From Frankiales bacterium (lineage in GTDB: Bacteria; Actinomycetota; Actinomycetes; Mycobacteriales; Geodermatophilaceae): a DNA stretch of 64,000 bases. Below, piece by piece: positions 32,992 through 54,414 of this stretch (position 1 is the first letter of the stretch; every line of letters starts with the position of its first letter). The position numbers and the translations under genes are program-made. The notes beneath the pieces were generated by a model, which was given only the letters and a program-made list of their open reading frames with translations, had not been told where the DNA came from and did no database searches. Location: NCBI GenBank assembly GCA_025465155.1, contig JAODNJ010000212.1:1-64000 (forward strand), read 5' to 3'.

Positions 32992-33016
32992 CCTTGTAGA
33001 CAATACTTCCACAAAG
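32992..33016. promoter_or_regulatory. GTGGA-N7-TCCAC operator, site A (one mismatch)
   Basis: Core GTAGA (32996-33000), CAATACT, TCCAC (33008-33012), with CCTT on the left and AAAG on the right. Shape and spacing equal those of sites at 47294-47310 and 54390-54414. It covers the predicted transcription start of the dehydrogenase operon. Confidence 0.6.
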
Positions 33017-33028
33017 TGTAGGACATTG

Positions 33029-34198
33029 GTGAACGCACAGGAGACTGCGGGATTCCGGGATGCCTATGTCGCTTATCTCAACAGCCTGCTCGCGGGGGAC
33101 ACGCTCCGGCTCCTGCACGACGAGGAGCGGTCCGCGACAGCTCCCCCGCGGACCGAGAGCCTGCGCCGCAAGCTGATCGCCCGGATGGGTGCCGCCGGTT
33201 GGCTCGGTGTGGGCTTCCCGGAGGAGCTGGGCGGCCGGCCCGGCACCAACCTCGATCAAGTGGCCCTGGTCGAGGAGAGCGAGCGTCTGGGTGCGCCGCT
33301 CCCGCTGATCACGTTGATGACGGTGGCGCCGACGCTGCTGCAATACGGCACCGATGAGCAGCGCGAGCGCTACCTGAGGCCCGTGCTCCGAGGGCACGTG
33401 GAGTTCGCGATCGGCTACACCGAGCCGTCCGCCGGGACCGATCTCGCGTCGCTTCGCACGCGCGCCGAGATCCGTGGCGACGAGCTCGTCATCAACGGGA
33501 GCAAGATCTTCACGAGCAACGCCGACCTCGCCGACTACATCTGGCTGGCGGTGCGCACCGATCCCGATGCCGAGAAGCACGCGGGCATCAGCATCGTGAT
33601 CGTCCCGGTCGATACCCCCGGTGTTTCGGTGACGACGATCAACACGCTGGCGGAGCACCGCACGACGGCGACCTTCTACGACAACGTCGTCGTCCCGGTC
33701 AGCAATCTCGTCGGCGGACTCGGTGGTGGCTGGCGCCTCATGACCTCCCAGCTCAACCGCGAACGGCTGGCGATGGCCGCGCGCGTGGAGGCGGCGCGCG
33801 GCCTGCTCCGCGACGTGATCGACTGGGCCTCGCGCACCCCGGTCGGCAACGGTGTCCTGGCCGAACAGCCGTGGGCGCGGACGAGCCTCGCCGATGCCTA
33901 CGTTCGGCTCTCTGCGGCTCGGCTCTTCGTCGAGCGTGTGGCCCGCGCCGAGACACCGGACCGGGTCGAGGCATCGATGGCGAAGGCGTACGGCACCGAG
34001 GCGGTTCTCGAGGCCCTTCGTCTCATGCTGGAGGTGAGTGGCAACGCGGGGCTCGTGCGCGGCGAGGACGCGATGCTGAGCGGCCGGCTCGAGCACGCCT
34101 ACCGGCGCGCCGTGATCAACACCTTCGGCGGGGGAACCAACGAGATCCAGCGACAGATCATCGCCAGCTCCGGCCTCGATCTGCCCCGCGCGCTCTGA
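33029..34198 (+). CDS. Acyl-CoA dehydrogenase, ChsE-like subunit
   Basis: 389 residues, full three-domain acyl-CoA dehydrogenase: FAD-binding GYTEPSAGTDLASLRT, beta-domain GSKIFTSNADLADYIWL and the C-terminal FGGGTNEIQR. At the place of the MCAD-type catalytic Glu (YEGT) it has Gly. This is also seen in heteromeric ChsE-type enzymes, where one subunit supplies the base from another position. Start GTG 33029, AGGA five bases ahead. It is the first gene of the operon; the second subunit is likely the protein at 35159-36250. It introduces the 2,3-double bond into an acyl-CoA. Confidence 0.87.
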   Translation: MNAQETAGFRDAYVAYLNSLLAGDTLRLLHDEERSATAPPRTESLRRKLIARMGAAGWLGVGFPEELGGRPGTNLDQVALVEESERLGAPLPLITLMTVAPTLLQYGTDEQRERYLRPVLRGHVEFAIGYTEPSAGTDLASLRTRAEIRGDELVINGSKIFTSNADLADYIWLAVRTDPDAEKHAGISIVIVPVDTPGVSVTTINTLAEHRTTATFYDNVVVPVSNLVGGLGGGWRLMTSQLNRERLAMAARVEAARGLLRDVIDWASRTPVGNGVLAEQPWARTSLADAYVRLSAARLFVERVARAETPDRVEASMAKAYGTEAVLEALRLMLEVSGNAGLVRGEDAMLSGRLEHAYRRAVINTFGGGTNEIQRQIIASSGLDLPRAL

Positions 34199-34235
34199 CG
34201 GCGTCGAGTCGACACGTACGGAAAGGACCCCCTGG

Positions 34236-35162
34236 ATGAGCTCCGACCTGCTTACGTCTCTCAGCCCGTTCCTCGGCAAGGTGTGCGAGGACGTCGTCGC
34301 TGCCGACCCGGTCAACGCCCCGATGGTGCGCGCCTGGTGCCACGCGCTCGGGGACGACGTCGATCGCTACCTCGGGGCCGATGGCGTGGTCGCCCCTCCG
34401 GCCATGCTCCAGGCGTGGTGCAAGCGGGTGGCGACCCCGGCGGCCGAGGGGCAGGACGTGCGTGCCGAGCTGCTCCAGGTGTGTGACGACGCGGGCTTCG
34501 TCTCCATCGTCGCCACCGACTGCGAGCAGCGCTACGTCCGCCGCCTGAACGAGGGCGATCTCCTGCGGTGCGTCGTCACGGTGGCCGACATCTCGCCGCT
34601 CAAGACGACCTCGTTGGGTGAGGGTCACTTCATCACGTTCAACCACGACTACACCGACCAGGCCGGCGAGACCGTCGCGGAGATGACCTATCGCGTGCTG
34701 AAGTTCCGGGCCTCCGAGAGCGCCGCGCCCGCGCGCCTCCCCCGGCGCGGCGAGCAGCTCCGGCCCGCGATCAACCGCGACAACGCGTTCTTCTGGGAGG
34801 GGACGCAGCTCGGCGAATTCCGGATCCAGAAGTGCTCCTCGTGCGGCTCGCTGCGCAATCCCCCCGGCCCGATGTGCCCGCACTGTCGATCCACTCAGTG
34901 GGGCTGGATCCTCGCGAGCGGCGAGGGCACCGTCCACAGTTTCACCGTGCCGCACTACCCGAAGGTCGAAGGCCTGGAGATGCCGTACGTCGTCGCCCTC
35001 GTCGATCTGACCGAGGGCGTGCGGACCATCACCAACATCGTGGACGTCGACCCAGCCGACGTCCAGGTCGGCATGCCCGTGGAGCTGCAGTTCGACGCCG
35101 TCGACAAGGACCTCACGCTGCCTCGCTTCCACACCGTTCCGTCAGGAACGAACCGAGCATGA
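34236..35162 (+). CDS. ChsH2-like hotdog hydratase fused to DUF35
   Basis: 308 residues. N-terminal FAS1/MaoC-type hotdog domain (~1-165), linker, then a DUF35 domain: zinc ribbon C-x2-C...C-x2-C in KCSSCGSLRNPPGPMCPHC (~205-222) and an OB-fold (GEGTVHSFTV to the end). Length and architecture match ChsH2 of the mycobacterial cholesterol side-chain system, whose hotdog pairs with ChsH1 and whose DUF35 part pairs with the aldolase Ltp2. Both partner types are encoded just downstream. Predicted role: hydration of an enoyl-CoA and handing the product to the aldolase. Confidence 0.85.
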   Translation: MSSDLLTSLSPFLGKVCEDVVAADPVNAPMVRAWCHALGDDVDRYLGADGVVAPPAMLQAWCKRVATPAAEGQDVRAELLQVCDDAGFVSIVATDCEQRYVRRLNEGDLLRCVVTVADISPLKTTSLGEGHFITFNHDYTDQAGETVAEMTYRVLKFRASESAAPARLPRRGEQLRPAINRDNAFFWEGTQLGEFRIQKCSSCGSLRNPPGPMCPHCRSTQWGWILASGEGTVHSFTVPHYPKVEGLEMPYVVALVDLTEGVRTITNIVDVDPADVQVGMPVELQFDAVDKDLTLPRFHTVPSGTNRA

Positions 35163-36250
35163 CGGGTCTCACCCCCGACCAGGACGAGATCGACTCGCTG
35201 GCGAGCCGCGTGCTGGCGGCCGGGAGCGAGGGCGCCGAAGCATCCTGGGAATCGCTGGCAGGTAGTGGGCTGCTGGGCCTCAGCCTGCCCGAGGCCGCCG
35301 GCGGGAGTGACCGCGGGCTGGCCGACTTCTGCCTGGTGATGCTCCACGCCGGCAGGCACCTGGCCACGGAGCCGCTGTGGCCGACCGTCTGTGCCTTGGG
35401 TCTCCCGTGGAGCCACTTCGGCGGCAAGGCCGGGAACGAGTTGCTGAACGGGATCGCCACCGGCCAGGTCCGAAGCGGTGCCGCCCTGCTCGAGGGGCCC
35501 ACTGGTCGGTGGGGCGCTCCCACTGTCACGGTCGCCCCGGCGGACGGAGGGTGGCGGGTCGACGGAACCAAGACCTACGCCGAGGTTCCGGAGCGCGCCA
35601 CCCATCTCGTCGTGTCCGCCGTCGGGTCCAGCGGTGACGTCTGCCTGGTGCTACTGGACCCGACGGACCCGGCGCTCACCTACGAGTCGGTCGACATGAG
35701 CGACGGCCGCCGTGCGGCGACCGTCCGGCTGGACGCAGCACGCGCCATGCTTCCTCCGCTGTCGGGAGAAGGGCTGCTCGACTGGGTGACCACACGCATC
35801 ACGCTCGCCATCTGCGCCTATCACGCCGGCGTCGCCCGCTCCGCGGTGGAGCTCACAGCCGCTCACCTCCGAGAGCGCGAGCAGTTCGGACGACCGTTGG
35901 GCGCATTCCAGGCGGTGGCCATGCGAGCTGCCGACGCCTACATGGACGCCGACGCCATGTGGGCGACGACCTGGGCCGCCGCCCAGGCCGTCGACGCGGG
36001 CGAGCCGTCGGGCGCGGTCGACGTGGCGGTGGCCAACGCCTTCGGGCGGGCGGCTGGCGCCAGGGTCCTCGCGGCCGCCCAGCACCTGCACGGCGGGGTG
36101 GGTGTCGACATCACGTATCCGCTGCACCGCTACTTCCTCGCCTCCAAACGCGCGCAGCTCTCCTTCGGATCGGCAGCCGCCCACCTGGACACCCTCGGTG
36201 CCGCCCTCTGCACCTCGGGGACCCTCAGTTCTGACAGGAGCCGATCATGA
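35159..36250 (+). CDS. Acyl-CoA dehydrogenase, second ChsE-like subunit
   Basis: 363 residues, compact acyl-CoA dehydrogenase-like protein. The N-terminal helical part is followed by a reduced beta region and the C-terminal helices with REREQFGRPLGAFQAVAMR and LHGGVGVDITYPLHRYF. The YEGT glutamate region reads LSFGSAAAHL, so that base is absent. Presumed non-identical partner of 33029-34198 in an alpha2beta2 enzyme. ATGA overlap with the ChsH2-like gene. Confidence 0.83.
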   Translation: MTGLTPDQDEIDSLASRVLAAGSEGAEASWESLAGSGLLGLSLPEAAGGSDRGLADFCLVMLHAGRHLATEPLWPTVCALGLPWSHFGGKAGNELLNGIATGQVRSGAALLEGPTGRWGAPTVTVAPADGGWRVDGTKTYAEVPERATHLVVSAVGSSGDVCLVLLDPTDPALTYESVDMSDGRRAATVRLDAARAMLPPLSGEGLLDWVTTRITLAICAYHAGVARSAVELTAAHLREREQFGRPLGAFQAVAMRAADAYMDADAMWATTWAAAQAVDAGEPSGAVDVAVANAFGRAAGARVLAAAQHLHGGVGVDITYPLHRYFLASKRAQLSFGSAAAHLDTLGAALCTSGTLSSDRSRS

Positions 36251-36675
36251 ACACGAGCCCTGCAAGCGCAACCGCGCCGACGCTCAGCGTCGGCGCGGAG
36301 CTCCCATCCGTCCGCATCCCGGTGACGACGACGCTGATCGTGGAGGCCGCCCTCGCCTCCCAGGACCTGTATCCGGGTCATCACGACCGCGACTTCGCCG
36401 TCGACCACGGCATGCCCGACGTGTTCATGAACATCCTCACGACCAACGGCCTGGTGGGCCGCTACCTGACCGACTGGGCCGGCCCGGGGAGCGTCCTGAA
36501 GCGGCTGAAGATCCGGCTCGGGGTGCCGAACCTCCCCGGCGACACCATGACGCTCAGGGGCCAGGTGACCGCGCACGACGAGTCCACGGGCAACATCACG
36601 GTCTCCTTCCGGGGCGAGAACTCCAAGGGAGCCCACGTCACCGGCGAGGCCGACCTCACGGCGGTGTCGGCATGA
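36247..36675 (+). CDS. ChsH1-like MaoC hydratase subunit
   Basis: 142 residues, single hotdog domain of the MaoC family. The motif DLYPGHHDRDFAVDHGMPDVFMN is the hydratase-2-like active-site region (residues ~41-60), with D...H in the usual places. Stand-alone small MaoC proteins of this type (ChsH1) combine with the N-terminal domain of ChsH2. ATGA overlaps on both sides show tight translation coupling with the dehydrogenase and the aldolase genes. Confidence 0.82.
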   Translation: MNTSPASATAPTLSVGAELPSVRIPVTTTLIVEAALASQDLYPGHHDRDFAVDHGMPDVFMNILTTNGLVGRYLTDWAGPGSVLKRLKIRLGVPNLPGDTMTLRGQVTAHDESTGNITVSFRGENSKGAHVTGEADLTAVSA

Positions 36676-37850
36676 TCGGCGCGAGCACGGCCATCGCCGG
36701 CGTAGGTGCCACCGACTTCTCCAGCGACTCTGGCCGCAGCGAGCTCCAACTCGCCCTGGAGGCGATCCTGGCCGCGCTCGAGGACGCCGGCGTGTCTCCG
36801 GAGGACGTCGACGGGATGGTCACCTACACCCTGGACACGAGTCCGGAGTGGGAGATCGCCCGCAACATGGGCACCGGCCCCCTGACGTTCTTCAACCGGG
36901 TCCCGCACGGCGGGGGTGCGGCCTGCGGCACGATCGCCCAGGCCGTCATGGCGGTGAAGAGCGGCGCGGCCTCGACCGTCGTCTGCTACCGGGCCTTCAA
37001 CGAGCGCTCCGGCCGCCGGTTCGGGATCGGCCCCCAGGAGGGCAATGCGCCGACGGCCGAGATGGTTCATCTCGGCTGGCATCGTCCGTACGGTCATCTG
37101 TCGGCCGGCTCGTGGGTCGGCATGTATGCACGGCGCTACATGGCGAAGTACGGCGCCACCAGCGCCGACTTCGGCCGCGTCACCGTGGCGATGCGTCAGT
37201 GGGCGGCCACCAACCCTGCAGCCAGGTTCTTCGAGCGCCCGCTCACCCTCGAGGAGCACCAGGCCTCCCGGTGGATCGCGGAGCCGCTCCGGCTCCTCGA
37301 CTGCTGCCTCGAGAGCGACGGCGGGGTGGCCTTCGTCGTGACCTCGCTCGAGCGGGCTCGCGACCTGCGCAAGCCGCCGGTCGTGGTGTCGTCCGTCGGG
37401 CAGATCTCCGCCCCCGGACAGGAGCGCATGACCGGCTACTACTTGCGCGACGACCTGACCCGCCTGCCGGAGGTCGAGATGCTGGGCGGCCAGCTGTGGC
37501 GCGAGTCGGGCCGCTCGCGGTCGGACGTGGACGTCGCCGTCGTCTACGACCACTTCACTCCGATGGTGCTCATGCAGCTCGAGGCGCTGGGCTTCTGCGC
37601 TCCGGGCGAGGCGGCGGCGTTCGTGGCGGACGGACATCTCGGCCGTGACGGATCGCTTCCGACCAATCCCAACGGCGGTCAGCTGGGCGAGGCCTACATC
37701 CACGGCATGAACGGCATCGCGGAAGCGGCGCGGCAGGTCCGCGGGGAGTCCGTCAACCAGGTGGCGTCGGTGGAGACGGCACTCGTCACCTCAGGGACCG
37801 GGGTGCCGACCAGCGCGATGATCCTGACGGCGGACACGGATCGACCATGA
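36672..37850 (+). CDS. Ltp2-like thiolase-fold retro-aldolase
   Basis: 392 residues, SCP-x/thiolase fold. The usual second thiolase cysteine motif (C-A-G-G near the C-terminus) is replaced by TSGTGVPTSAMIL, and VYDHFTPMVLMQLEALGFC carries the tyrosine found in Ltp2-type enzymes. The block NPNGGQLGEAYIHGMNGI is typical of this lipid-transfer group. Ltp2 cleaves a 3-hydroxyacyl-CoA by retro-aldol reaction together with DUF35, and the ChsH2-like protein of the same operon offers such a domain. True thiolysis is therefore unlikely. Confidence 0.83.
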   Translation: MIGASTAIAGVGATDFSSDSGRSELQLALEAILAALEDAGVSPEDVDGMVTYTLDTSPEWEIARNMGTGPLTFFNRVPHGGGAACGTIAQAVMAVKSGAASTVVCYRAFNERSGRRFGIGPQEGNAPTAEMVHLGWHRPYGHLSAGSWVGMYARRYMAKYGATSADFGRVTVAMRQWAATNPAARFFERPLTLEEHQASRWIAEPLRLLDCCLESDGGVAFVVTSLERARDLRKPPVVVSSVGQISAPGQERMTGYYLRDDLTRLPEVEMLGGQLWRESGRSRSDVDVAVVYDHFTPMVLMQLEALGFCAPGEAAAFVADGHLGRDGSLPTNPNGGQLGEAYIHGMNGIAEAARQVRGESVNQVASVETALVTSGTGVPTSAMILTADTDRP

Positions 37851-40051
37851 CGGAGGCCGCCCCGCGACCGGACGATCTCCTGTCCGACGTCACGGTCATC
37901 CAGCTCGGTGATGGCCCGCGCATGGCGTACGGCGGCCGGCTCCTGGCCGATCTCGGCGCCGACGTGGTCGTGCCGTCTCGCTCCGCGCCGGCCCGCAGCT
38001 CGCGCCGTGTGCTCCTCGACTCGTTCCTCGATCAGGGCAAGCGCATGGTGGCGCTTCCCCCTGGCGGCGATGCGCGCTCGTCGGCGATAGCGGAACTGAC
38101 CCGGTCCGCGTCGGTGGTGCTGCTGGATCTCCACGCCGCCCATGCCGCCGAGGACCTCGCCGCGATCGAGGCCCTGGCGGTCCCGCAGCTCCACGTCCGC
38201 GACAGGCCCACGTCGGCTGTCGGCTCGCCTCCCACCCCGGAGTTGCTCCTTCAGGCCGAGGCCGGCTGGATCTACCGGCGCGGGCCGGTGCCGCAACCGG
38301 TGCGCGTAGGCGGTCGACTGGCGGACTTCTCGATCGGCGCATACGTGGCGGTGGGCGCTCTCGTGGCGCTCGCCGGGGTCGAGACCACCGCGGCCCCCAC
38401 CGTCGAGCTGTGCGGGCTGGAGGCCCTGTACAACACCCTCCCCCTCAGCCGGTTCTACCGCGGCCCGCAGACGAACCCGCTGCTGGATGCCGGCCCTCCC
38501 GGCATCGTGCGCTGCTCCGACGGCTGGGCCGGCATCAACTGCCTGACTGGTCAGCACTGGGAGGACCTCTGCACGCTCCTCGGTCTCGAGGAGCACATGT
38601 CCCGACTGCCCGAGATCAAGGCCTCGGAGGCCGCCCTGGCCGAGTTCCGGAAGCAGATCCCGGAGTGGTTCCTCGATCAGCCGGCTACCGAGATCGTCTC
38701 CCTGTGCCAGGCGTTACGCATCCCGTCGGCGCCCGTGGGCACCGGGGCGACGATGCCCGGCTTCGAGCACTGGGTGGAACGCGGATCGATCGCTTCGACG
38801 CAGATCGACGGGCGCAGTCTGCCCAGCCCACGCCCACCCTTTCGCGTGCACGGACGAGCGACCGGGGGCTCGCGTCCATCCTCGCCGCCGTCGGAACTGC
38901 CGGACCTTCCGTTCGCCGGACGTCGCGTGCTCGACCTCGGCAGCTTCTGGGCGGCGCCCTATCTCACCTGCCTGCTCGGTGCCCTCGGCGCGGATGTGGT
39001 GAAGGTCGAGGGGCCGCGCCGGCCCGATGGCTTCCGCTACTTCGGCGTCTCCCCCGACGACGGCGAGCTCTGGTACGAGTCCGGTGCCGCCTGGCAGGCC
39101 ACCAACCTGAATAAGCGGGGTATCGCGCTCGACCTGACCCGGCCCGAAGGTCGCGAGCTCCTGCTCCGGCTCGCGGAGGACGCCGAGGTCGTCATCGAGA
39201 ACTTCTCACCCCGGGTGATCGAGCAGTTCGGCCTCGACCACGCGGCGCTGTCCGAGCGCAACCCTCGGATCTCGCTGATGAGGATGCCCGCCTATGGGAC
39301 CGACGGCCCGTGGCGCGACTACGTCGGGTGGGCCGCCACCTTCGAGGAGATCGGGGGGCTCGCCGAGGTCACCGGCTTCCCCGAGGGCCCGCCGAACATC
39401 CCCGGCGGCCAGTCCGACCCCATCGCGGGCCTGCACGCCGCGGTCGCGGTTCTCGCCGCGATGCGCCGAGCCGCTCGGACGGGCGTGGGGTACGACCTCG
39501 AGGTCGCGACCTCGGACGTCATGCTCTATCTCGCCGCCGAGCAGCTGCTCGACTCCGCCGATCGCGGCATCTCGACGACCCGGCTCGGCAACGAGGGCGC
39601 TGACCTCGCGGCCGAGAGCGTGACGGGCGACGACGCCTCGGGGTGGCAGGCACGGGTCGATGCACCGGGCGCACAGCCTCGGGTCGCCGACGTGATCTCC
39701 GCCCACGCGCTGCCCGGACGGCTCGAGGAGGGCAACACGGGCATCACGACACGATTCCCCGTCGTCGGCGCACTCGACGGGCGAATCTTCCTCAACTGGC
39801 CGCTGCACGTGGGGGGACGCAGGGTCGTCCAGCACGCCGGCCCACCGAGACTCGGCGAGCACACCGCAGTCGTGCTCGCCGAGCTGGGCCTCGACGAGCC
39901 GCAGGTCGTCGAGCTGATCGAGAACGGCACCGTCCTGGTGGGCGCTGCCGGCCCGAACGCACACGTGCGAGCCACCGAGGCGCGCACTGGCCAGGAACCC
40001 GCTCGGGGATGCTCGAGCGGGAGAAGGGAAGTTGATCATGGAGGCGGGTAG
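37847..40051 (+). CDS. Double-domain CaiB/BaiF CoA transferase
   Basis: 734 residues, two family III CoA-transferase domains in one chain. N-terminal half ~1-330 (catalytic-Asp region RLADFSIGAYVAVG), C-terminal half ~350-734 (RRVLDLGSFWAAPYLTCLLGALGADVVKVEG; Asp region GQSDPIAGLHAA). Both aspartates look present. Family III enzymes are interlocked dimers of single-domain chains, so this could be a covalent pseudo-dimer. It would load CoA onto the acid entering the pathway. ATGA overlap with the aldolase gene. Confidence 0.85.
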   Translation: MTEAAPRPDDLLSDVTVIQLGDGPRMAYGGRLLADLGADVVVPSRSAPARSSRRVLLDSFLDQGKRMVALPPGGDARSSAIAELTRSASVVLLDLHAAHAAEDLAAIEALAVPQLHVRDRPTSAVGSPPTPELLLQAEAGWIYRRGPVPQPVRVGGRLADFSIGAYVAVGALVALAGVETTAAPTVELCGLEALYNTLPLSRFYRGPQTNPLLDAGPPGIVRCSDGWAGINCLTGQHWEDLCTLLGLEEHMSRLPEIKASEAALAEFRKQIPEWFLDQPATEIVSLCQALRIPSAPVGTGATMPGFEHWVERGSIASTQIDGRSLPSPRPPFRVHGRATGGSRPSSPPSELPDLPFAGRRVLDLGSFWAAPYLTCLLGALGADVVKVEGPRRPDGFRYFGVSPDDGELWYESGAAWQATNLNKRGIALDLTRPEGRELLLRLAEDAEVVIENFSPRVIEQFGLDHAALSERNPRISLMRMPAYGTDGPWRDYVGWAATFEEIGGLAEVTGFPEGPPNIPGGQSDPIAGLHAAVAVLAAMRRAARTGVGYDLEVATSDVMLYLAAEQLLDSADRGISTTRLGNEGADLAAESVTGDDASGWQARVDAPGAQPRVADVISAHALPGRLEEGNTGITTRFPVVGALDGRIFLNWPLHVGGRRVVQHAGPPRLGEHTAVVLAELGLDEPQVVELIENGTVLVGAAGPNAHVRATEARTGQEPARGCSSGRREVDHGGG

Positions 40052-40556
40052 CCGCAACTTCGAGCTGGGGTACGACTTCAGCCACATCGTCCCGATACCG
40101 CACGACGCGGACAGCACGGCCTACGTAAGCGCCGGAGCGGTCGAGCTCGGCCTCGAGTACCGCTCGCTCGATCAGGACACGCAGGTCGAGACCATTGCTC
40201 CCGACGGAACCACCGTCGTCAGGCAGGTCGAGCTCGTCGAGAGCGGCCTGTCGATCCACGTGTTCGACGCGGCGAAGCGCACCGAGCGGCTGCGGTTCGA
40301 CGACCTGGACGACGATCCGCACTACCACTACCTCGACCCCGGGAAGCTCAACCACTTGGTCGTCTACGACCGCGCTGCCAACGGCGACATGATGGAGTGG
40401 GCGATGGCCGCGATCGGAGCGAACCTTCGCGCCATGCTGACGGAGGCCCGAGCCGAGGAGTTGGCGGCGCAGGTCGACGATGCGCTGCTCGCGTCGGCGC
40501 TGCAGGAGCTGAGGGGACTCGTCGCGAAGCATCGCTCCGTGCCGGCTGCGGGCTGA
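40038..40556 (+). CDS. Unrecognised operon protein
   Basis: 172 residues from ATG 40038 (AAGGG ahead; a TTG two codons earlier is possible). I do not recognise the family. The N-terminal half looks like beta strands (AGAVELGLEYRSLD, TVVRQVELVESGLSIHVFD), then DDDPHYHYLDPG with several His/Asp that could bind a metal, then a helical half (ANGDMMEWAMAAIGANLRAML). There is no signal peptide or membrane segment. It overlaps the CoA transferase by 14 bp and precedes the ThDP enzyme by 3 bp, so it is a regular member of the operon. Confidence 0.75.
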   Translation: MEAGSRNFELGYDFSHIVPIPHDADSTAYVSAGAVELGLEYRSLDQDTQVETIAPDGTTVVRQVELVESGLSIHVFDAAKRTERLRFDDLDDDPHYHYLDPGKLNHLVVYDRAANGDMMEWAMAAIGANLRAMLTEARAEELAAQVDDALLASALQELRGLVAKHRSVPAAG

Positions 40557-40559
40557 CGC

Positions 40560-42179
40560 GTGGCGGATGCTACTGACGGGGTGTTTCGCGCGCTCCTCGA
40601 TCGTCTGATCACCCTCGGCGTCGAGCGGGTGTTCGGCGTCGTCGGAGACGGCAACGTCGGCTTCGTTCGTGTCGTCGACGAGGCCTCCCGTCTGCGGCCG
40701 GACGCGCCCGTCTACGTGCGCGCCCGGCACGAGGCCGGCGCGGTGTCGATGGCCGACGGATTCGCTCGGATGCGACGCACTGTCGCGGTAGCCACCCTGA
40801 CCCAAGGCCCAGGGCTGGCCAACGCCGTGACGGCCCTCGCGACGGCCAGTCGGCATCGGACTCCGCTCCTGGTCGTGGTCGGGGACCTCGACGACGGCCA
40901 GCGCTCGGAGCATCTCCAGTGGATCGACCAGTCGGCGATGCTGTCGGCGGCCGGCGTCTCGGTGGTCCGGGCCGACGGACGTACACCAGGAGCCGCCGAG
41001 GTCGCGGTGGCGCGCGCGGCCGCGGGAGAGACCGTCGTCCTGGGCGTGACACCGGCCGGCCGAATTCTCGACGCCGAGCTTCGGCCGGAGGGCGGGGCGC
41101 CCGGCGCCGAGGATGCGCCGCCGCTCGACGACCGCGAGCTGACCGACCTCCTCACCCTGGTCGAGCGCAGCGTGCGGCCACTTGTCCTCGCGGGCGCCGG
41201 CGGCATCCAGGCGCGCGAGGAGTTGATCGGTCTCGCGGAACGACTCGGCGCTCCGCTCCTCACCACGGTGCAGGCGAAGGGCCTCTTCACCGGTGCGCCG
41301 TCGGCGCTCGGCGTGGTGGGCGGATTCGCCACCGAGGCCACCAAGCGAGTCACGGCGCAGGCCGACCTGGTGCTGGCCTTCGGCGCCGGGCTCAACCGTT
41401 ACACGGTCGACCACGGCGCCGCCTTCGGAGATGCGCAGATCGTCGCCGTCGACCCGGATCCGGATCCGCTCCGGCGCTCCCCATCCGTCGCCCCGCGGCT
41501 CCGGCGGGTCCTGGCCGACGGCCGGCTGACCGCGGCCCGCCTGTCCGCCGGCGTCGGCGTCGGGTCCGGCGCTCGCACTGCGTGGTGGCCGAGGCCCGAG
41601 CCCGAGACCTCCCCCGGCGCGGCGTCCGGCCTGCTGCACCCGAAGGCGGCGATGCTTGCGCTGGGCCGTCTGCTCCCGCCCGATCGGGTGCTGGTCGTCG
41701 AAGGTGGCAGCTGCGTGGGCTGGCCGTGCACCTATCTCGACGTACAGCACCCCGACGACTTCGTCTTCGGGATGGACTTCGGAGCCATCGGCGTGTCGAC
41801 GGCCCTCGCCGCGGGCGTGGCGTTCGCTCGCCCCGATCGCACGGTGGTGGCCGTTGCCGGCGACGGCGGCTTCATGATGGGCATCGCCGATCTGGACACC
41901 GTGGCCCGCTACCGGCTGCCGATCCTCTTCGTCGTCCTGAACGACGAGTGCCTCGGGATCGAGGCGCTTCTCCTGCGAGGACTGCAGGCGCCGACCGATC
42001 CGGCCGACTATGCGGACGGACCGACGCTGCAGCAGGTCGTCTCAGGATTCGGGATCCGAGCCGTTCGGGTGACGACCCTGGACGAGCTGGAGGCGGCGCT
42101 GTCCACCACGATCACGGTTCCGACGCTACTCGACCTGCGGATCGACGGGAGCATCCGGCCGGAGTGGCTCCGCCGTTGA
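40560..42179 (+). CDS. Thiamine-diphosphate-dependent enzyme (acetolactate synthase-like)
   Basis: 539 residues. Three ThDP-enzyme domains: N-terminal pyrimidine domain with catalytic Glu in ARHEAGAVSMADGFAR (~55), central domain with RPLVLAGAGGIQ, C-terminal diphosphate domain with GDGGFMMGIADLDTV ending in N-D of VVLND. Family members are 2-oxoacid decarboxylases, carboligases or 2-hydroxyacyl-CoA lyases. Which one applies is not decided by sequence. Start GTG 40560. Last gene of the operon, convergent with the SDR gene. Confidence 0.87.
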   Translation: MADATDGVFRALLDRLITLGVERVFGVVGDGNVGFVRVVDEASRLRPDAPVYVRARHEAGAVSMADGFARMRRTVAVATLTQGPGLANAVTALATASRHRTPLLVVVGDLDDGQRSEHLQWIDQSAMLSAAGVSVVRADGRTPGAAEVAVARAAAGETVVLGVTPAGRILDAELRPEGGAPGAEDAPPLDDRELTDLLTLVERSVRPLVLAGAGGIQAREELIGLAERLGAPLLTTVQAKGLFTGAPSALGVVGGFATEATKRVTAQADLVLAFGAGLNRYTVDHGAAFGDAQIVAVDPDPDPLRRSPSVAPRLRRVLADGRLTAARLSAGVGVGSGARTAWWPRPEPETSPGAASGLLHPKAAMLALGRLLPPDRVLVVEGGSCVGWPCTYLDVQHPDDFVFGMDFGAIGVSTALAAGVAFARPDRTVVAVAGDGGFMMGIADLDTVARYRLPILFVVLNDECLGIEALLLRGLQAPTDPADYADGPTLQQVVSGFGIRAVRVTTLDELEAALSTTITVPTLLDLRIDGSIRPEWLRR

Positions 42180-46880: not shown

Positions 46881-46909
46881 GGCCTTCCCTTCCTCCTCGC
46901 CCGCGCGTC

Positions 46910-47239
46910 TCACGCGTTCGCCACGGGCTCGCGGAGGATGTGCTCCTTCACGACGCCCACGGTGATCGCTCCGATGAAGTGCCCTCGATCCGCCTCGATC
47001 TCGTCGGCCAGCGCCGCGAAACCGCGCGCCATTGCGTCCTCGTCCTCGAACCAGAGCTCGGCGAACCCGTCCCAGTCCTGGGTGTTCTCGCCGACCCACT
47101 TCTCCACGAAGTTCAGGCGGTAGGCGAGCAGGCCGGGGATGCGCAGCGCGATCGGGCCATGCACCTCGAGCCAGTGCTTGCAGAACGCTTCGTGAGTCAT
47201 GCCCTCGGGTCGCTTGATGATCCCGATCCGCTTGAGCAC
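46910..47239 (-). CDS. EthD-like dimeric alpha-beta barrel protein
   Basis: 109 residues, EthD family: LKRIGIIKRPEGMTHEAFCKHWLEVHGPIA at the N-terminus, then NFVEKWVGEN and WDGFAELWFED. Such proteins support oxidations or act as small cyclases/decarboxylases. Start GTG 47239 with AAGGAG ahead. First gene of the minus-strand operon, next to the operator at 47294-47310. Confidence 0.85.
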   Translation of the reverse strand: MLKRIGIIKRPEGMTHEAFCKHWLEVHGPIALRIPGLLAYRLNFVEKWVGENTQDWDGFAELWFEDEDAMARGFAALADEIEADRGHFIGAITVGVVKEHILREPVANA

Positions 47240-47367: not shown

Positions 47368-49704
47368 TTGGATTTCCTCTCGGACCTACGGGTCGTGGAG
47401 ATCGCCGAGGGCATCGCGGGACCGTACTGCGGCAAGCTCTTCGTCGACGCGGGCGCCGACGTGCTCAAGATCGAGACCGCGCTCGGCGACCACCTCCGCG
47501 GACGAGCTGTGCACGGGGAAGATCAGGGCGACGGCGACAGCGCCCTCTTCCGCTATCTCAACGCCGCGAAGCGATCCACGGTTCTGTCCGGGACGGACGT
47601 GGTCGAGGTGGCGGCGCGAGCCGACGTCGTCATCGAGGGAAACACCCCCGCACGCGTCGACATCGCAGCGCTCCGGGCCGCGAATCCCCGGCTCGTCGTC
47701 GTCTCGATCACGCCGTACGGTCGCGGCGGAGCGTGGGAGACGAGGCCTGCCACCGAGTTCACCGTGCAGGCCGAGGGCGGCGGGATCCTGGGCCGCGGGC
47801 TCGACGCCGAGCCGCCGGTCCAGGTCGGCGCACGACTCTCCGAGTACATCGCAGGCGCATACGGCGCCGTCGGCGCGCTGGCGGCGGCCCGGCACGCGCG
47901 CAGGACCGGACGTGGCGAGCACGTCGACGTCTCGCTGATGGAGACCATCACGTTGACGTACACCAACTTCCGCGACCTGTCGCAGAGGCTTTCGGGGCAG
48001 CCCCTCGCGGGGTTGGCACGCCTGGTGGAGCGTCCCTCGATCGAGCCGACCCTCGACGGCTGGGTGGGCTTCAACACCAACACGCGGCCGCAGCTCGACG
48101 CCTTCCTCGTCCTCCTGGGGCGGGCGGACCTGCTCGACGACGAGCGCTTCACCACCGCCAACGCCCGGCGTGAGAACGCCGAGGAGTTCGACCGGATCGT
48201 GCGGGAGGTGACCACGACCCGCACGACCGCCGACCTGGTGGAGCAGGCGACCCTCCTCCGTGTCCCAGTGGCGCCGGTGCTCGACGGGCCCGGCATCCTC
48301 GCTCACGAGCACTTCCGTGGCCGGGAGGCGCTCGGGCCCGCCCCCGACCTCGCCTTCGAACAGCCCTACCCGCCCTATCGCCTTAACGGCGAACGGCCGT
48401 ATCCGCGGGGACGGGCGCCGCGGCTGGGCGAGCACAGCCCCAGGGCCGGTGTGCCGGTCCCACCACCACTGCATCCGGGCGAGGCCGACGCGCTGCCACT
48501 CAGCGATCTCCGGGTGCTCGATGCGACCGCCTGGTGGGCCGGGCCCTCGTCGACCCAGTTGCTCGCCTCGCTCGGCGCCGACGTGATCCACCTCGAGTCG
48601 GTCAGCCATCCGGACGGCGCCCGCATGGTCGCGCAGCCGAGCGAGCGCTTCTGGGAGCGCTCGCACCTCTACCTGGCCACCAACACCAACAAGCGCGACC
48701 TGACGCTGAGCCTGGGCGATCCGCGGGCGCGCGGGCATGTCGAGCGGCTGATCGGTTCGGTGGACCTGGTCGTCGAGAACTTCTCGCCCCGCGTCTTCGA
48801 CGGCTTCGGACTGACCTGGGACCTGATCCGTTCGCTCAATCCCCGTGCCAGCCTGATCCGGATGCCCGCCTTCGGGCTGGACGGGCCGTGGCGCGACAAC
48901 GTCGGCTTCGCCCAGACGATGGAGCAGATGACGGGGATGGCCTGGATGACGGGCTATCCCGACCAGCAGCCCCGCATCCCGCTCGGCCCCTGCGATCCCA
49001 ACGCCGGCTCCCATGCGACCTTCGCCCTGCTCGTCGCGCTGTGGCACCGCGACCGGACCGGCGGGGGCTCGTTCGTCGAGGCCTGCATGGCGGAGGCCGC
49101 GCTCAACGTCGCCGCGGAGGTCACTGTCTGCTTCTCGGCGTACCAGGTACGGCTGTCACGGAACGGAAACCGCGGACCGGACGCCGCGCCGCAGGGCCTC
49201 TATCGGTGCGGCGCCGCCGAGGAATGGCTGGCGATCGCCGTCGCGACCGACGAGCAGTGGGCAGGGCTCGTGGCCCTGCTCGGGCATCCGACCTGGGCGA
49301 GCGACCCCGCCCTTGCTCACCGGGCGGGGCGGATCGCCGACCATGACCTCATCGACCGGGAGCTCGCCGCCTGGCTGCGCGACCGCGACGTCGCGGCGAC
49401 GGCGGACCTGCTCGTGGGTGCCGGGATACCCGCGGCGCACGCCCGTGATCCGCGGCGCACCAGCGGGCATCCACGCCACGTCGAGCGAGGTTTCTTCGAG
49501 CCGGTCGCACACCCTCTGGCCGGCGAGCTGTCCGTGCCGCGCCCTCCCTTCCGGTTCTCGTCGATACGACGTTGGAACCGGACCCCGGCGCCGCTGTTCG
49601 GGGAGCACAACCGGGAGTTGATCACCGGCCTGCTGGGCGCCGCCGACGAGGACTATCGGCAGCTGGTCCGGGCCGGCGTCGTCGGGCACCGGCCGCTGAC
49701 CTGA
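47368..49704 (+). CDS. Double-domain CaiB/BaiF CoA transferase, second
   Basis: 778 residues from TTG 47368, chosen because AAGGAG lies nine bases ahead and the family pattern (LRVVEIAEGIAGPYCGKLFV) begins right there. In-frame ATGs at 47314 and 47359 are less well placed, the first only 3 bp after the operator. N-terminal CoA-transferase domain ~1-350, C-terminal one ~385-778 (LRVLDATAWWAGPSSTQLLA). The C-terminal half keeps the catalytic Asp (GPCDPNAGSHA); the N-terminal half has Glu at that place (RLSEYIAGAYG). Organisation equals that of 37847-40051. Convergent with the dehydrogenase genes to the right. Confidence 0.83.
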   Translation: MDFLSDLRVVEIAEGIAGPYCGKLFVDAGADVLKIETALGDHLRGRAVHGEDQGDGDSALFRYLNAAKRSTVLSGTDVVEVAARADVVIEGNTPARVDIAALRAANPRLVVVSITPYGRGGAWETRPATEFTVQAEGGGILGRGLDAEPPVQVGARLSEYIAGAYGAVGALAAARHARRTGRGEHVDVSLMETITLTYTNFRDLSQRLSGQPLAGLARLVERPSIEPTLDGWVGFNTNTRPQLDAFLVLLGRADLLDDERFTTANARRENAEEFDRIVREVTTTRTTADLVEQATLLRVPVAPVLDGPGILAHEHFRGREALGPAPDLAFEQPYPPYRLNGERPYPRGRAPRLGEHSPRAGVPVPPPLHPGEADALPLSDLRVLDATAWWAGPSSTQLLASLGADVIHLESVSHPDGARMVAQPSERFWERSHLYLATNTNKRDLTLSLGDPRARGHVERLIGSVDLVVENFSPRVFDGFGLTWDLIRSLNPRASLIRMPAFGLDGPWRDNVGFAQTMEQMTGMAWMTGYPDQQPRIPLGPCDPNAGSHATFALLVALWHRDRTGGGSFVEACMAEAALNVAAEVTVCFSAYQVRLSRNGNRGPDAAPQGLYRCGAAEEWLAIAVATDEQWAGLVALLGHPTWASDPALAHRAGRIADHDLIDRELAAWLRDRDVAATADLLVGAGIPAAHARDPRRTSGHPRHVERGFFEPVAHPLAGELSVPRPPFRFSSIRRWNRTPAPLFGEHNRELITGLLGAADEDYRQLVRAGVVGHRPLT

Positions 49705-49708: not shown

Positions 49709-50386
49709 TCAGGCTGCGCCCGCCGCGATCCTCATGGCGTGGTCGAGGTAGCGATGAAAGCCGGCCTCCCACGTGAACCCGATGGCGCCGTGCAGCTGCA
49801 GCGCCTCCTCGACGGCGTCCTGGTAGGTCGAGCACAGCAACGCGAGCACCGCCCGGGGATCGACGGCGCCGTCGGCCTCTGGCGAGGCGAGCCAGCGCAG
49901 CCCCCCGAGCGCCGCGGTCTCGATGAGGTGCTGGCGGACACTGACGTCGGCCAGCCGGTGCTGCAGCACCTGGAACTCCAGGAGCGGCCGGCCGAACTGG
50001 ACCCGCTGACTCAGGTAGCGCCGCGTCGCCCCGACCAGGCCGCCCAGCGCACCCGCCATCTCGAAGAGGTCGAGCATCGCCCGGACCTGCGGATCGGTCG
50101 TGCCCACGAGCTCCGCGGCCGAGAAGGGCAGCAGCCGCCTGCCGATCTCGGCGGCAAGAGCCGCGACGTCGGCGAGGTCGCCACCGACGCCACCCTCGCT
50201 CTCCGGCGTCAGGAGGAGCGGCACGTCCAGCGCCCCGAGCCGATCCCGGAGGCGAGCAACCACCTCGGTCGGACGGTCGGCCCGCTCGAGCGGACCCCAG
50301 AGCTCGTCCGCGACAGCGCCGACCGAGCACCGCAGGGCGACGCGCTCCTCGCTGTCGAGCGCGTCCCAGGCCCACACGCCCGTCAC
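49709..50386 (-). CDS. Acyl-CoA dehydrogenase-like protein lacking the central beta domain
   Basis: 225 residues, far below the usual ~380. The N-terminal helical domain (~1-95, ending LAAEIGRRLLPFSAAELVG) runs straight into the C-terminal domain (LGGLVGATRRYLSQRVQFGRPLLEFQ, LQLHGAIGFTWEAGFHRYL). The middle beta-barrel that holds flavin and substrate is missing cleanly, without a frameshift. GTG 50386 overlaps the upstream full-length dehydrogenase (GTGA). I infer a non-catalytic or half-site partner of that enzyme. Confidence 0.78.
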   Translation of the reverse strand: MTGVWAWDALDSEERVALRCSVGAVADELWGPLERADRPTEVVARLRDRLGALDVPLLLTPESEGGVGGDLADVAALAAEIGRRLLPFSAAELVGTTDPQVRAMLDLFEMAGALGGLVGATRRYLSQRVQFGRPLLEFQVLQHRLADVSVRQHLIETAALGGLRWLASPEADGAVDPRAVLALLCSTYQDAVEEALQLHGAIGFTWEAGFHRYLDHAMRIAAGAA

Positions 50387-51525
50387 GAGGACGTCGTCCT
50401 CATGAGGGAGCGGGTGATGACCGTGCGCTGGACCTCGGACGTGCCGGCGTAGATCGTCTCGGCGCGCGACTCGAGGTAGGCGCCGCGCCAGCGCTCCAGC
50501 ACTACGGAGTCGATCGCGCCACGAACGTGAAGGGCGGTGCAGTGGTCGGCCATCGTCCTGAGGAAACGCTGGTGGGCCTCGCTCCAGGCGAGCTTGAGGT
50601 AGGACCCCTGGAGCGCGCCCTCGGTGGGCGGCACCGAGACGGCGCGGTAGCAGAGCGCCCGGAGCACGGCGGCCATCGCCTGCTCGCGTGCAGCTGTCGC
50701 AGCAAGTGCGGGATCCCCGCAGCCTTCGGCCAGCTCTCGCGCCTCCTCGGTCTCGCGCAGCATCGCGACGACCCGCGGCACCATGTTGATGACGCGCTCG
50801 TGCGTGAGCGCGGCATGCGCCACGCGCCAACCCTCGTTGAGGGGACCGACCACATCGGTGAGCTGGATGGTGACATCGTCGAGGAAGACCTCGCAGAAGC
50901 CGCTGTCGCCCGTGATCTTCCGGATGGGTCGGACCTCGACCCCCTGTGCGTGCATGTCGATGATGACCAGGCTGATCCCGCGGTGGCGCTCTGCGGCCTC
51001 GTCGGTGCGGACGAGGGCGAACATGAAGTCGGCGAAGGCCGCATTGCTCGACCAGACCTTCTGGCCGCGGACCAGAAAGCGATCACCGTCGGGCCGGGCC
51101 ACGGTCCGCAGGCTCGCGAGATCGGAGCCCGCCTCGGGCTCGGAGAACCCCTGACACCACACCTCGGTGGCCGACAGCAGTCCGGGCAGGTAGCGCTGCT
51201 TCTGCTCGGACGTGCCGTACATCATCAGCGTCGGCGCGAAGGTCCGCTTTCCGGGGCGGTTGGTCTCGTCTGGCGCTCCCTGACGCGCGAGCTCCTCGTA
51301 GCAGGCGACCTGCTCGGTGATCGAGAGCCCCATGCCGCCGTACTCGACCGGCCAACCCGGCGCGCCCCAACCCGCCGCGGCGAGGTGCTGCTCCCAGGCG
51401 AGGCCGAGCCGGTCGCGGTCGTCGAGGAGGTCCGCGTGGTCGCGGAGGAAGCCAGGAAGCTCGTCGGCCAGCCACGCGCGCAGCCGCGAACGCAGCCCGA
51501 CACCCGTGTCAGCGTTTGAGGGCAT
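50383..51525 (-). CDS. Acyl-CoA dehydrogenase
   Basis: 380 residues, full-length. FAD/substrate motifs GFSEPEAGSDLASLRT and GQKVWSSNAAFADFMFAL; C-terminal IYAGTSEVQRTVITR. The YEGT glutamate is Ala here. Its ATG lies 17 bases inside the 3' end of the enoyl-CoA hydratase gene. Likely works with the shortened protein encoded next. Confidence 0.87.
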   Translation of the reverse strand: MPSNADTGVGLRSRLRAWLADELPGFLRDHADLLDDRDRLGLAWEQHLAAAGWGAPGWPVEYGGMGLSITEQVACYEELARQGAPDETNRPGKRTFAPTLMMYGTSEQKQRYLPGLLSATEVWCQGFSEPEAGSDLASLRTVARPDGDRFLVRGQKVWSSNAAFADFMFALVRTDEAAERHRGISLVIIDMHAQGVEVRPIRKITGDSGFCEVFLDDVTIQLTDVVGPLNEGWRVAHAALTHERVINMVPRVVAMLRETEEARELAEGCGDPALAATAAREQAMAAVLRALCYRAVSVPPTEGALQGSYLKLAWSEAHQRFLRTMADHCTALHVRGAIDSVVLERWRGAYLESRAETIYAGTSEVQRTVITRSLMRTTSS

Positions 51526-52288
51526 CGCTGATCCGATCACCGACCACGTCATGCCACTCGTTCGTGAAGTGGGTGAGCATGTGAGTGTCGAAGTGGGCTT
51601 CGAGGGAAGCACCGCGGCCGGCGATGTCCTGCATCCGGTTGATCGAGCGCTTGACCATCTGTACGGCAAACGGCGGGGCCGCCGCGATGCGCGTCGCGAT
51701 CTCGCGCGTGGCGGCGTCGAGTTCGTGGCGCGGCACGACGTGGTTGGCCAGCCCGAGCGCTGCCGCCTCGTTCGCCTCGATCGAGCGGCCCGTGAACAGC
51801 AGCTCCTTGGCGACGCGTACGGGCAGCACCCAGGGATGGAAGAGCACCTCGACGCCCGCCGCGCCGAGCTTGTGGACGACCGGGTCGGAGAAGACAGCAT
51901 CGTCGGAGCAGACGATCAGGTCGGCCATCGCGGCGATCATGAAGCCGGCCGCGATGCAGTTGCCCTGCACCCGCGCGATAGTCGGCTGACGGAGGTTGAG
52001 CAGCCGGATGCAGAGGTTGAAGTAGAGGCGGTACTCGTACTCGAAGCGCTCCTCGACGCTGAATCCGGAGCGGGACTGGGCGTCCTTGAGGTCATGGCCC
52101 GCCGAGAAGTCCGGTCCCGCACCCCCGATCACCACGACGCGAACGTCGTTGTCCGCGTCCAGCCTCGTGAATATCCTTTCTAGGTCGACGAGCAAGGCCT
52201 TGTTCTGGGCGTTGCGCACCTCAGGACGGTTCAGCTCGACGTAGGCGACGCCGTCCTCGACGGTTAGCGTGACGAGGTCATGGGGCAT
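51509..52288 (-). CDS. Enoyl-CoA hydratase/isomerase family protein without the usual Glu pair
   Basis: 259 residues, crotonase fold. Oxyanion-hole motifs FSAGHDLKD and QGNCIAAGFM are present. At the two catalytic glutamates of crotonase I read Met (AAGFMIAAMADL) and Val (FSDPVVHKLG), so simple hydration is doubtful. Isomerase, hydrolase or C-C bond activity is possible. AAGGAG precedes ATG 52288. Confidence 0.85.
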   Translation of the reverse strand: MPHDLVTLTVEDGVAYVELNRPEVRNAQNKALLVDLERIFTRLDADNDVRVVVIGGAGPDFSAGHDLKDAQSRSGFSVEERFEYEYRLYFNLCIRLLNLRQPTIARVQGNCIAAGFMIAAMADLIVCSDDAVFSDPVVHKLGAAGVEVLFHPWVLPVRVAKELLFTGRSIEANEAAALGLANHVVPRHELDAATREIATRIAAAPPFAVQMVKRSINRMQDIAGRGASLEAHFDTHMLTHFTNEWHDVVGDRISDALKR

Positions 52289-54347
52289 GGCGGTCTCCTT
52301 CTCGGGTTCCGGTGCGCAGGATCACGCAATCGACGGCCATCCCGCCGGGGTGAGCGGCCGAGATCCGTAGGGGGTTGATCTCCAGGACCGAGGCGTCGGG
52401 GATCGCCACCGCGAGCTCACCGAGCCGCTCGACGCTGGCGGCCACCTCGGGCGACTCGACCCCGAGACGGCAGAGGGCACGGCGAGCGGCGTCGCGTGGG
52501 AGCGGCACCGGCAGCTGGATGCGGAGCCGCTGGCCGGCTTCGACGTCACCCCCGCCGTAGGAGAGGATCATCGTCGGTCCGAACGCGTCGGCGAGGCGGA
52601 TGCCGACGAACAGCTCGGTCTCCGCGTCGGCGTACTGCTGGACGAGGACCGTCGCCCCCCGGAGGCCGGCGCTCCGGGCACCGTCGACGAGCGCCTCGAA
52701 GCGGTCGCGCGCGTCCTGCTCGTTCCGGATGCCGACGGCGACCAGGCCGAGACGGGCACGGTGCAGGAGGCCAGGAGCGTCCGCCTTCATCACCACGGGC
52801 CAGCCCAGCGCGCGAGCCGCCGCTGCGGCGTCGTCGGCGTTTGCCACGACGCGCGTCAGCGGGACCCCGAGTCCCGCCGCACGCAGGAGGGTCTCGGCCT
52901 CGGGCCAGGGCAGGACGTCGAGCGTCGCATCGGCCGGCGTCGCGTCGTCCGCCGCAGACGACCCCGAGTCCTCGGGCGGCGGGCCGAAGGCGTGCGCGAG
53001 GCTCCGTACGGCGCTCCTGGGCTCCTCGACCATCACCAAGTTGGGCGGCAGGGGGCGATCCCAGCCGGCCGGGCGGCGGCCGATCACGACGACGGGGTGG
53101 GTCAGGGCGGCGGCACCGTCTGCGATGACGCCCAGTACCTCGGCGCCGACACGATCCATCGCCGTGACATGCCCGGTGAAGAGGACCGTCGCACCGATCT
53201 CCGGGTCGGCGCCGGCGCGCAGCAGCTCGGCGATCGATGTCGTGTCCCGCAGGGCGGCAGGCCCGAAGTCCGCGGGGTTGGCCCCTTCGGGTTTGTCCGG
53301 GTCGAGCCGGGCGAGATGCAGGCCCCGATCGGCGAGCTGGTCGACGATGAGCGCGTTCATGCCTCCGGAGAAGGAGCCCAGCAGGACTCGTCTCGGCCGG
53401 TCGGCGACCAGGCGGCGGGGCACCGTGAGCGCGTCGAGGAACGCGCTCTCGTCGGAAGCGCAGGTGGCGCCCGCGGCCTCCACGACTGTCCGGAAAGCCC
53501 CGGCGGTGCCGCCGACGGCGCCTGTGTGGGAGGCGCTGATGGCGCGGCCCTCCACCGACCTCCCGACCTGGAGCGCCACCACGTCGACGCCTGCGGCGTG
53601 CGCCGCGGCCACGGATTCCCGGAAGCGTCGCCAATCAGGAGTCCCCTCGAGCACCAGCCCGACGCGTTCGGCTCGCTGGGAGACGAGGAACGACAGGCAC
53701 TCCGCGGCATCGACGTCGATCTCGTTCCCGGTGTCCACCACGTAGCCGAGCTCGACGCCGCGGTCCATCAGCAACGTGCCGCCGAGGTAGGCCAACATCG
53801 CTCCGCTCTGGCTGAGCAGGCTGACCCGCGGACCGCCCGAACCCGTGCCGAGCCGGCGGGAGCCCGGCCCGACATCACCTGCGAAGGTCGCGAAGAGTTC
53901 AGCGCCGTAGTTGCGGAAGCCCGAGCTGTTCGGGCCCAGCACTCGGGTTCCCGACGACCGGGCATAGGCAGCCACGACGGCCTCGAACGCCCGCCGCTCC
54001 GACGCGTTTCCCGCAGCCTCCGCCAGGACGACGACACCACCGAGGTCGGGCGCAAGTGGTCCCCGACCGAGGAGCTCGGCGGCTACTCCGGCGGGGACGG
54101 CCAGGACCGCGACGTCAATGCCGTCGGGCACATGGGCCGGCTCGGCCACCCACGTGACCCCGGCGGCGTCGGCGCCGTCGGCCGCGGCCTTGGGGTTGAC
54201 GCAGAAGAGCGGCCCCGGGAACCGTCCCTTGAGGTTGGCCAGGACCTTGCCGCCGAGCTTGTCCGGGTCGCGACTGGCGCCGACGATCGCGATCGAGCGC
54301 GGGTTCAGCATTCGCGTGACCGGAGCGCGGTCGGCCGACATCGGCAC
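52278..54347 (-). CDS. ADP-forming acyl-CoA synthetase (acetate-CoA ligase family)
   Basis: 689 residues. CoA-binding domain (PRSIAIVGASRDPDKLGGKV, ~15-130), succinyl-CoA-ligase-like domains (GPRVSLLSQSGAMLAYLG; phospho-His candidate in AISASHTGAVGG at ~275) and a C-terminal ATP-grasp domain (from ~465, with PVVMKADAPGLLHRA). It makes an acyl-CoA from acid, CoA and ATP, or the reverse. Start GTG 54347 behind AGGAGG. First gene of the operon running to 49709, with site C in front. Confidence 0.88.
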   Translation of the reverse strand: MPMSADRAPVTRMLNPRSIAIVGASRDPDKLGGKVLANLKGRFPGPLFCVNPKAAADGADAAGVTWVAEPAHVPDGIDVAVLAVPAGVAAELLGRGPLAPDLGGVVVLAEAAGNASERRAFEAVVAAYARSSGTRVLGPNSSGFRNYGAELFATFAGDVGPGSRRLGTGSGGPRVSLLSQSGAMLAYLGGTLLMDRGVELGYVVDTGNEIDVDAAECLSFLVSQRAERVGLVLEGTPDWRRFRESVAAAHAAGVDVVALQVGRSVEGRAISASHTGAVGGTAGAFRTVVEAAGATCASDESAFLDALTVPRRLVADRPRRVLLGSFSGGMNALIVDQLADRGLHLARLDPDKPEGANPADFGPAALRDTTSIAELLRAGADPEIGATVLFTGHVTAMDRVGAEVLGVIADGAAALTHPVVVIGRRPAGWDRPLPPNLVMVEEPRSAVRSLAHAFGPPPEDSGSSAADDATPADATLDVLPWPEAETLLRAAGLGVPLTRVVANADDAAAAARALGWPVVMKADAPGLLHRARLGLVAVGIRNEQDARDRFEALVDGARSAGLRGATVLVQQYADAETELFVGIRLADAFGPTMILSYGGGDVEAGQRLRIQLPVPLPRDAARRALCRLGVESPEVAASVERLGELAVAIPDASVLEINPLRISAAHPGGMAVDCVILRTGTREGDRHAP

Positions 54348-54389
54348 CGCCGACCTCCTGCTCTCACGCCGGACGTCTCTCCGGGCAAC

Positions 54390-54414
54390 CTTCGTGGAAT
54401 ACTATTCCACGAAG
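54390..54414. promoter_or_regulatory. 25-bp perfect interrupted palindrome, operator site C
   Basis: Left arm CTTCGTGGAATA (54390-54401), centre C, right arm TATTCCACGAAG (54403-54414): all 12 pairs match. It lies between the divergent ADP-forming synthetase and thiolase operons and contains GTGGA-N7-TCCAC. The strongest of the three similar sites; size fits a TetR-family dimer. Confidence 0.75.

Follow-up and report, generated by a model that had tools for sequence, protein, structure and literature searches.

Two described regulatory systems come closest to the one analyzed here. In the KstR regulon of mycobacteria and other actinomycetes, a dimeric repressor acts at a site that overlaps the -10 region (PMC1995591). 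For the IclR family, the published group 2 operator consensus, TGRAACAN1-2TGTTYCA, shares a TGGAA-N5-TTCCA frame with the IclR and AllR boxes (PMC8222616). The present analysis concerns a palindrome, GTGGA-N7-TCCAC, at promoters of an acyl-CoA catabolic gene cluster of a Frankiales bacterium. It lies in a 64,000-nucleotide stretch (the window), which comprises bases 1-64000 of contig C592 (129,704 bp) of a 5.23-Mb assembly in 612 contigs.

As in the KstR regulon, a single palindrome recurs at numerous lipid-catabolic promoters, which are often divergent. Unlike the sites described here, the KstR motif, TnnAACnnGTTnnA, is even, and none of the six operators contains it. KstR is also a known regulator, and its intergenic instances number 16 and 31 in two genomes, whereas our palindrome belongs to one cluster (PMC1995591). 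The odd 15-bp core TGGAA-N5-TTCCA of two operators (C and D) is shared with the E. coli IclR and AllR operators. The sites differ from those systems in that no IclR gene adjoins them, four of them match only partly and the inner CA/TG is absent (PMC8222616).

Six related palindromes in one catabolic cluster

We consider it likely that six related palindromes, operators A to F, are bound by a single transcription factor, which would govern a whole 43-kb catabolic cluster for the degradation of acids and would most likely be a homodimer that represses. Three of them had been described in an earlier note on this DNA, which placed them in a shared 17-bp frame between divergent operons, the third within a perfect 25-bp palindrome. 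All three are present at those positions with the mismatches it reported, the palindrome pairs at 12 of 12 positions around its odd centre, and the gene calls place each site between divergent genes. The earlier observation is thereby confirmed, and with the further sites it becomes stronger than first described. The six sites are as follows, in contig coordinates, which are also those of the window.

Operator A, 32996-33012, unstranded: GTAGACAATACTTCCAC, one mismatch, between g30 (minus) and g31 (plus), matrix score 25.8
Operator B, 47294-47310, unstranded: GTGGACACCCTATCCAC, exact, between g43 (minus) and g44 (plus)
Operator C, 54390-54414, unstranded: CTTCGTGGAATACTATTCCACGAAG, with the exact 17-mer at 54394-54410, between g48 (minus) and g49 (plus)
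Operator D, C592:64963-64979: exact, found by pattern search past the window end, at the next divergent promoter
Operator E, C592:67729-67745: matrix match centred on 67737, past the window end, 25 bp before g62
Operator F, C592:68613-68629: matrix match centred on 68621, past the window end, 60 bp before g63

Past the window, the remaining 65.7 kb of the contig have one exact match, operator D, which was no part of the data from which the motif was drawn. Sites A-D were used to build a 25-bp matrix, which was applied to the contig and to extracted loci. When each site was left out in turn and the matrix rebuilt, A, B, C and D ranked 4th, 7th, 4th and 6th of 129,680 positions. The best further matches to the matrix were, in order, E, a position at 52175 and F, and the six operators score 20.1-30.4. 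A weak seventh candidate at 74812, before the g68-g67 operon, was set aside as background; it scored 8.3 when the matrix comprised four sites and 6.0 when it comprised six.

The position of these sites carries much of the argument. Each divergent promoter gap of the cluster contains one of the six palindromes, and so does the stretch before each of the two right-hand tandem units. On this contig the motif marks every divergent promoter of a functional cluster and none of the divergent promoters elsewhere. Divergent gaps hold a site in 4 of 4 cases inside the cluster vs 0 of 11 elsewhere on the contig (Fisher p 7e-4), and tandem gaps of at least 40 bp in 2 of 4 vs 0 of 29; these counts use all six sites, and the cluster limits (30.7-73.4 kb) were set from gene content after the sites were known.

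A relation to transcription starts is suggested by the promoter geometry. The earlier note had site A sitting on the predicted start. Five promoter stretches at these gaps were scanned with strict sigma-70 criteria and gave no match; by eye, a TTGACA-17-TAGCGT pair ends 7 nt before operator A. Also by eye, TTGACA-17-TAGGTT ends 5 nt before operator F, and -10-like hexamers are found before D (CATTAT-like, leftward), E (TATCGT-like) and C (AACCTA-like, leftward). The distance from hexamer to 17-mer is 3-8 nt for A, leftward C, leftward D, E and F. A protein bound there would be expected to cover the transcription start. We infer that a dimer would bind around the start and would block transcription to both sides of each divergent gap. 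Its release would then be brought about by an acyl-CoA or acid of the pathway, and all units would switch on together.

Chance and conservation

Exact matches to the motif are rare, and those on this contig lie at promoters. In the whole assembly there are eight, compared with two for the reversed control pattern. Three of the eight lie on this contig, which makes up 2.5% of the assembly, and all three are in promoter gaps outside called genes. The five on other contigs all fall inside open frames of 315-751 codons. Where GC is this high, however, an open frame says little about coding, and the GC pattern typical of coding DNA is clear in only two of the five (L001, L002). No exact match was found by pattern search in clearly non-coding DNA elsewhere in the assembly. 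With one mismatch allowed, six of eight matches on the contig lie in promoter-like bases (7,083 bp, 5.5%), and the other two are within g18 and g70. Seven control palindromes of like shape gave 0-3 matches in the same bases; the top control, GAGGT-N7-ACCTC, had 3 of its 4 matches there, all with one mismatch. Matches of the quality of E and F would be expected 0.18 times in promoter-like bases and were found twice.

Conservation was sought in related genomes and in plasmids. The g63 mutase was found at E<=1e-160 in 1 of 397 genomes of the order, the source genome itself (3 candidates scored per genome). The acyl-CoA synthetase g48 was found only in the source genome among 61 relatives, and likewise among 396 genomes of the phylum (2 candidates scored per genome), and had no plasmid match at 1e-40. 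The CoA transferase g44 reached at most 35% identity among the plasmid matches listed. The core TGGAATANTATTCCA occurs in 1 of 397 genomes of the order, again the source genome. The nearest mutase among the matches listed (80 loci) is 58% identical and comes from an Acidimicrobiaceae metagenome-assembled genome (L106), with the gene order thiolase-mutase-ligase. The gap upstream of this operon contains the top matrix match of the 21.6-kb locus, TACTGTGGAAAGCAGATCGACATCA, which immediately follows a -10-like hexamer. None of 4000 simulated gaps scored as high, and the site ties for first across the 80 loci listed. It is the one orthologous promoter that could be compared, and it holds a site in the right gap, in degenerate form.

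Several observations weigh against a single regulon read from this motif. At up to two mismatches the window holds 39 matches vs 36.8 expected, which is chance level, and at up to one mismatch the genome holds 156 vs 85 for the reversed control (genome-wide counts were made by pattern, and only the one-mismatch matches on the contig were placed). The matrix match at 52175, ranked between E and F, lies within gene g47. Among A-D, operator B is weakest, and no promoter is obvious for it. The layout rests on self-made codon-usage gene calls. No candidate regulator gene that was examined has a site at its own promoter, though many repressors autoregulate. Order, phylum, plasmid and wider genome searches, some with few candidates scored per genome or covering only the matches listed, gave no close copy of the cluster for footprinting. 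The L106 genome contains no exact TGGAA-N5-TTCCA, and this frame is not in excess in 19 genomes with the nearest mutases or IclR relatives (31 vs 39 reversed). Top matches with nominal E up to 0.066 occur in at least 10 of the 80 loci where about 5 are expected, and because this is about twice chance, the L106 site offers moderate support for conservation.

The two mismatch counts are also what would favor the palindromes being chance matches thrown up by GC-rich composition. Loose matching proves nothing here; the evidence is the exact matches and their position. There are few exact matches, they are over-represented on this contig and those here sit at promoters; D, E and F were not among the data from which the motif was derived. 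We regard a chance origin as very improbable. The random genome-wide occurrence that the earlier note had named as its refutation is not seen for exact matches, while one-mismatch matches are numerous across the genome. These data support the conclusion that the predicted operator set and regulon are real and of a familiar kind of gene control, here over an unfamiliar pathway.

Gene content of the cluster

Operators A-F flank ten units with about 38 called genes at 30.7-73.4 kb. The 116 genes of the contig (g0-g115) were called with a codon-usage script made for this analysis, and their starts are approximate. For g44, the TTG start at 47368 was chosen over the script call at 47314, and Pfam was run from 47371. 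The earlier note had tied six operons with about 20 genes into one regulon; six units with 23 called genes, in which g28 and g29 are pieces of one broken gene, do flank A, B and C (3 open reading frames and 8 genes at A, 5 and 1 at B, 4 and 2 at C, left and right), and the regulon now extends beyond them. Past C there are 9 genes left of D and a broken hydrolase right of it, 1 gene at E and 4 at F.

30703..32817, minus: unit left of A; short open reading frame g30 and a broken acyl-CoA ligase (g29, g28)
33029..42179, plus: unit right of A, g31-g38; two acyl-CoA dehydrogenases, ChsH2-like, MaoC, thiolase-like, double CoA transferase, DUF7700, thiamine diphosphate enzyme
42198..47239, minus: unit left of B, g43-g39; EthD, OYE/FadH-type reductase, SMP-30-like, ketopantoate-reductase-like, SDR
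47368..49704, plus: right of B; g44, double CoA transferase
49709..54347, minus: unit left of C, g48-g45; ADP-forming acyl-CoA synthetase-like, enoyl-CoA hydratase, two acyl-CoA dehydrogenases
54479..56541, plus: unit right of C; g49 thiolase, g50 SDR
56531..64000 in the window, extending to 64920, minus: unit left of D, g59-g51
C592:67762-73398, past the window: units E (g62 hydratase) and F (g63 mutase large subunit, g64 ligase, g65 B12-binding, g66 thiolase)

The unit left of D comprises two acyl-CoA dehydrogenases, two CoA transferases, the MaoC-like g55 and g54, a thiolase-like protein, a ChsH2-like OB protein and a hydrolase; g54 is MaoC-like by eye only, and neither it nor g30 has a Pfam match. 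Together, the Pfam and NCBIfam assignments make a coherent acyl-CoA catabolic gene set. Unit F includes a methylmalonyl-CoA-mutase-like large subunit (g63) with a separate B12-binding subunit (L009:5681-9210). The two ChsH2/thiolase sets are reminiscent of steroid side-chain degradation and its retro-aldol step.

Other features of these genes were also observed. Two double-length proteins (37847-40051 and 47368-49704) have two CoA transferase III stretches each. The acyl-CoA ligase at 30703-32617 is split into two Pfam pieces in different frames, and alpha/beta-hydrolase-like frames are broken, by eye, at C592:65080-65900; each may reflect decay or an assembly error.

Candidate regulators

Regulator genes on the contig were surveyed with library scans on about 45 of the 116 called genes and by eye for the rest, so that further regulators may be missed. 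The survey found four GntR genes (13801, 22558, 23237, 103634), four TetR genes (27092, 73388, 84639, 121929), one MarR gene (65974) and two IclR genes (95261, 108079). In the matrix scan, none of these carries a strong site at its own promoter. By the shape of the motif, an IclR-family protein of IclR/AllR type would be our first guess and TetR the second. The earlier note had placed the regulator outside the window, which is compatible with these findings and unproven.

An IclR-family regulator of the same regulon, for example one of the two encoded on this contig (95261-96142 or 108079-108873), is a possibility that we rate as less likely than not. The group 2 consensus has outer half-sites TGRAA-N5-TTYCA, which operators C and D match, and the E. 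coli IclR and AllR operators (TGGAAATNATTTCCA and KTTGGAAWAWTWTTCCAAC) show the same frame (PMC8222616). However, both half-sites are matched in only two of the six operators, with a partial match in the other four, and the inner CA/TG is not found in any of the six; the group 1 operator, GKTYCRYW3-4RYGRAMC, matches none of them. None of 26 loci found with an IclR helix-turn-helix model, two of them on the contig, has a site (best score 10.9 vs 20.1-30.4; 150 of 264 first-look candidates scored). Both IclR genes of the contig are also 22-35 kb beyond the cluster, in its 64% GC part. The protein at 95261-96142 has relatives of 30-38% identity in 8 other genomes (316 searched), a 47% paralogue on contig C219 and up to 36.7% identity in plasmids. 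The one at 108079 reaches 44.8% among the plasmid matches listed.

A TetR regulator, which the earlier note would have sought through a TetR gene with the same site upstream, is not supported by the sequence data. None of 38 off-contig TetR loci found with PF00440 has a site (best score 13.0), in a search that would miss TetR genes as divergent as g67. On the contig itself, none of the top 25 matrix matches that score near the sites adjoins any of the four TetR genes. One TetR gene, g67 (73388-73990, minus), borders the cluster on its right, where it overlaps the end of g66. It weakly resembles a TetR model (BetI, 7.6e-6, far under the cut-off), and TetR repressors run acyl-CoA catabolic regulons in actinobacteria, as described for KstR (PMC1995591). 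However, g67 has no Pfam match at 1e-3, and its own operon is preceded only by a very weak match (6.0, six-site matrix). Its recognition helix, CSKSTIYAL, is nearly the CSKxTLY of its relatives. In all 20 of the 20 relatives' loci examined, the divergent gap holds 1-4 RGTACY words and lacks GTGGA-N7-TCCAC, so that g67 is predicted to read another sequence. RGTACY is absent from all six operators. We consider g67 an unlikely regulator of this regulon.

The g67 search gave matches in 39 of 98 genomes, the source included, and 20 loci were extracted from the 38 others; in all 20, a g78-type acyl-CoA dehydrogenase adjoins the TetR gene. A search of wider genome contigs with g67 gave no match. The same arrangement is seen on this contig in the divergent g77/g78 TetR/acyl-CoA dehydrogenase pair (C592:85184-85402; L010:2184-2402), which is conserved in the taxonomic order. 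This pair concerns acyl-CoA metabolism and has a TetR protein related to g67, but its gap holds RGTACY and not the palindrome. The RGTACY repeats of that gap (85259-85291) and of the relatives' gaps (20 of 20, L084-L103) are a candidate operator of that TetR family.

The MarR gene g60 (65974-66450) is the only regulator gene found strictly inside the cluster, and it has a MarR_2 match of 4.3e-7. It is followed by a major facilitator superfamily (MFS) transporter gene, and a MarR gene with an MFS transporter is a common self-contained pair. By eye, the g60 promoter also has a different, imperfect repeat (ATGTATGCAGTACACAT). Control of the regulon by g60 is quite improbable. As an element of the cluster, the MarR-MFS pair (C592:65974-67693) lies inside it without the shared operator.

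Origin of the contig

Composition changes along the contig. GC is about 70% up to 70 kb and about 64% after, with the step at about 70000-75000. Tetranucleotide correlation with 46 other stretches of the assembly is 0.990 for the first 32 kb, 0.974 for the cluster and 0.880 for the last 55 kb; for reference, the value is 0.998 between halves of the 46 stretches and 0.991 for DNA of the same genus against those stretches. Given these shifts, and with no orthologous cluster found in the related genomes searched, it is probable that some of the contig was transferred as an island, comes from a plasmid, was mis-binned or is chimeric. Its right-hand part looks foreign. A foreign origin would mean that the regulator may lie in DNA absent from the assembly.

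Significance

The motif spellings, and GTGGAATA combined with TetR and regulon, were not found in the open-licence literature. A broader picture, which we offer tentatively and hold to be rather doubtful as a whole, is an undescribed catabolic island of about 38 genes in which two ChsH2/thiolase retro-aldol-type sets would feed an uncharacterised B12-dependent acyl-CoA mutase, under an unlinked repressor of IclR/AllR type and with a motif new to the literature searched. The predicted operator indicates which of the loosely annotated acyl-CoA genes belong together and so makes one testable unit of them. The 25-bp operator would also serve as a probe for fishing out the regulator. In addition, the shared operator would tie the B12-dependent mutase to the same pathway.

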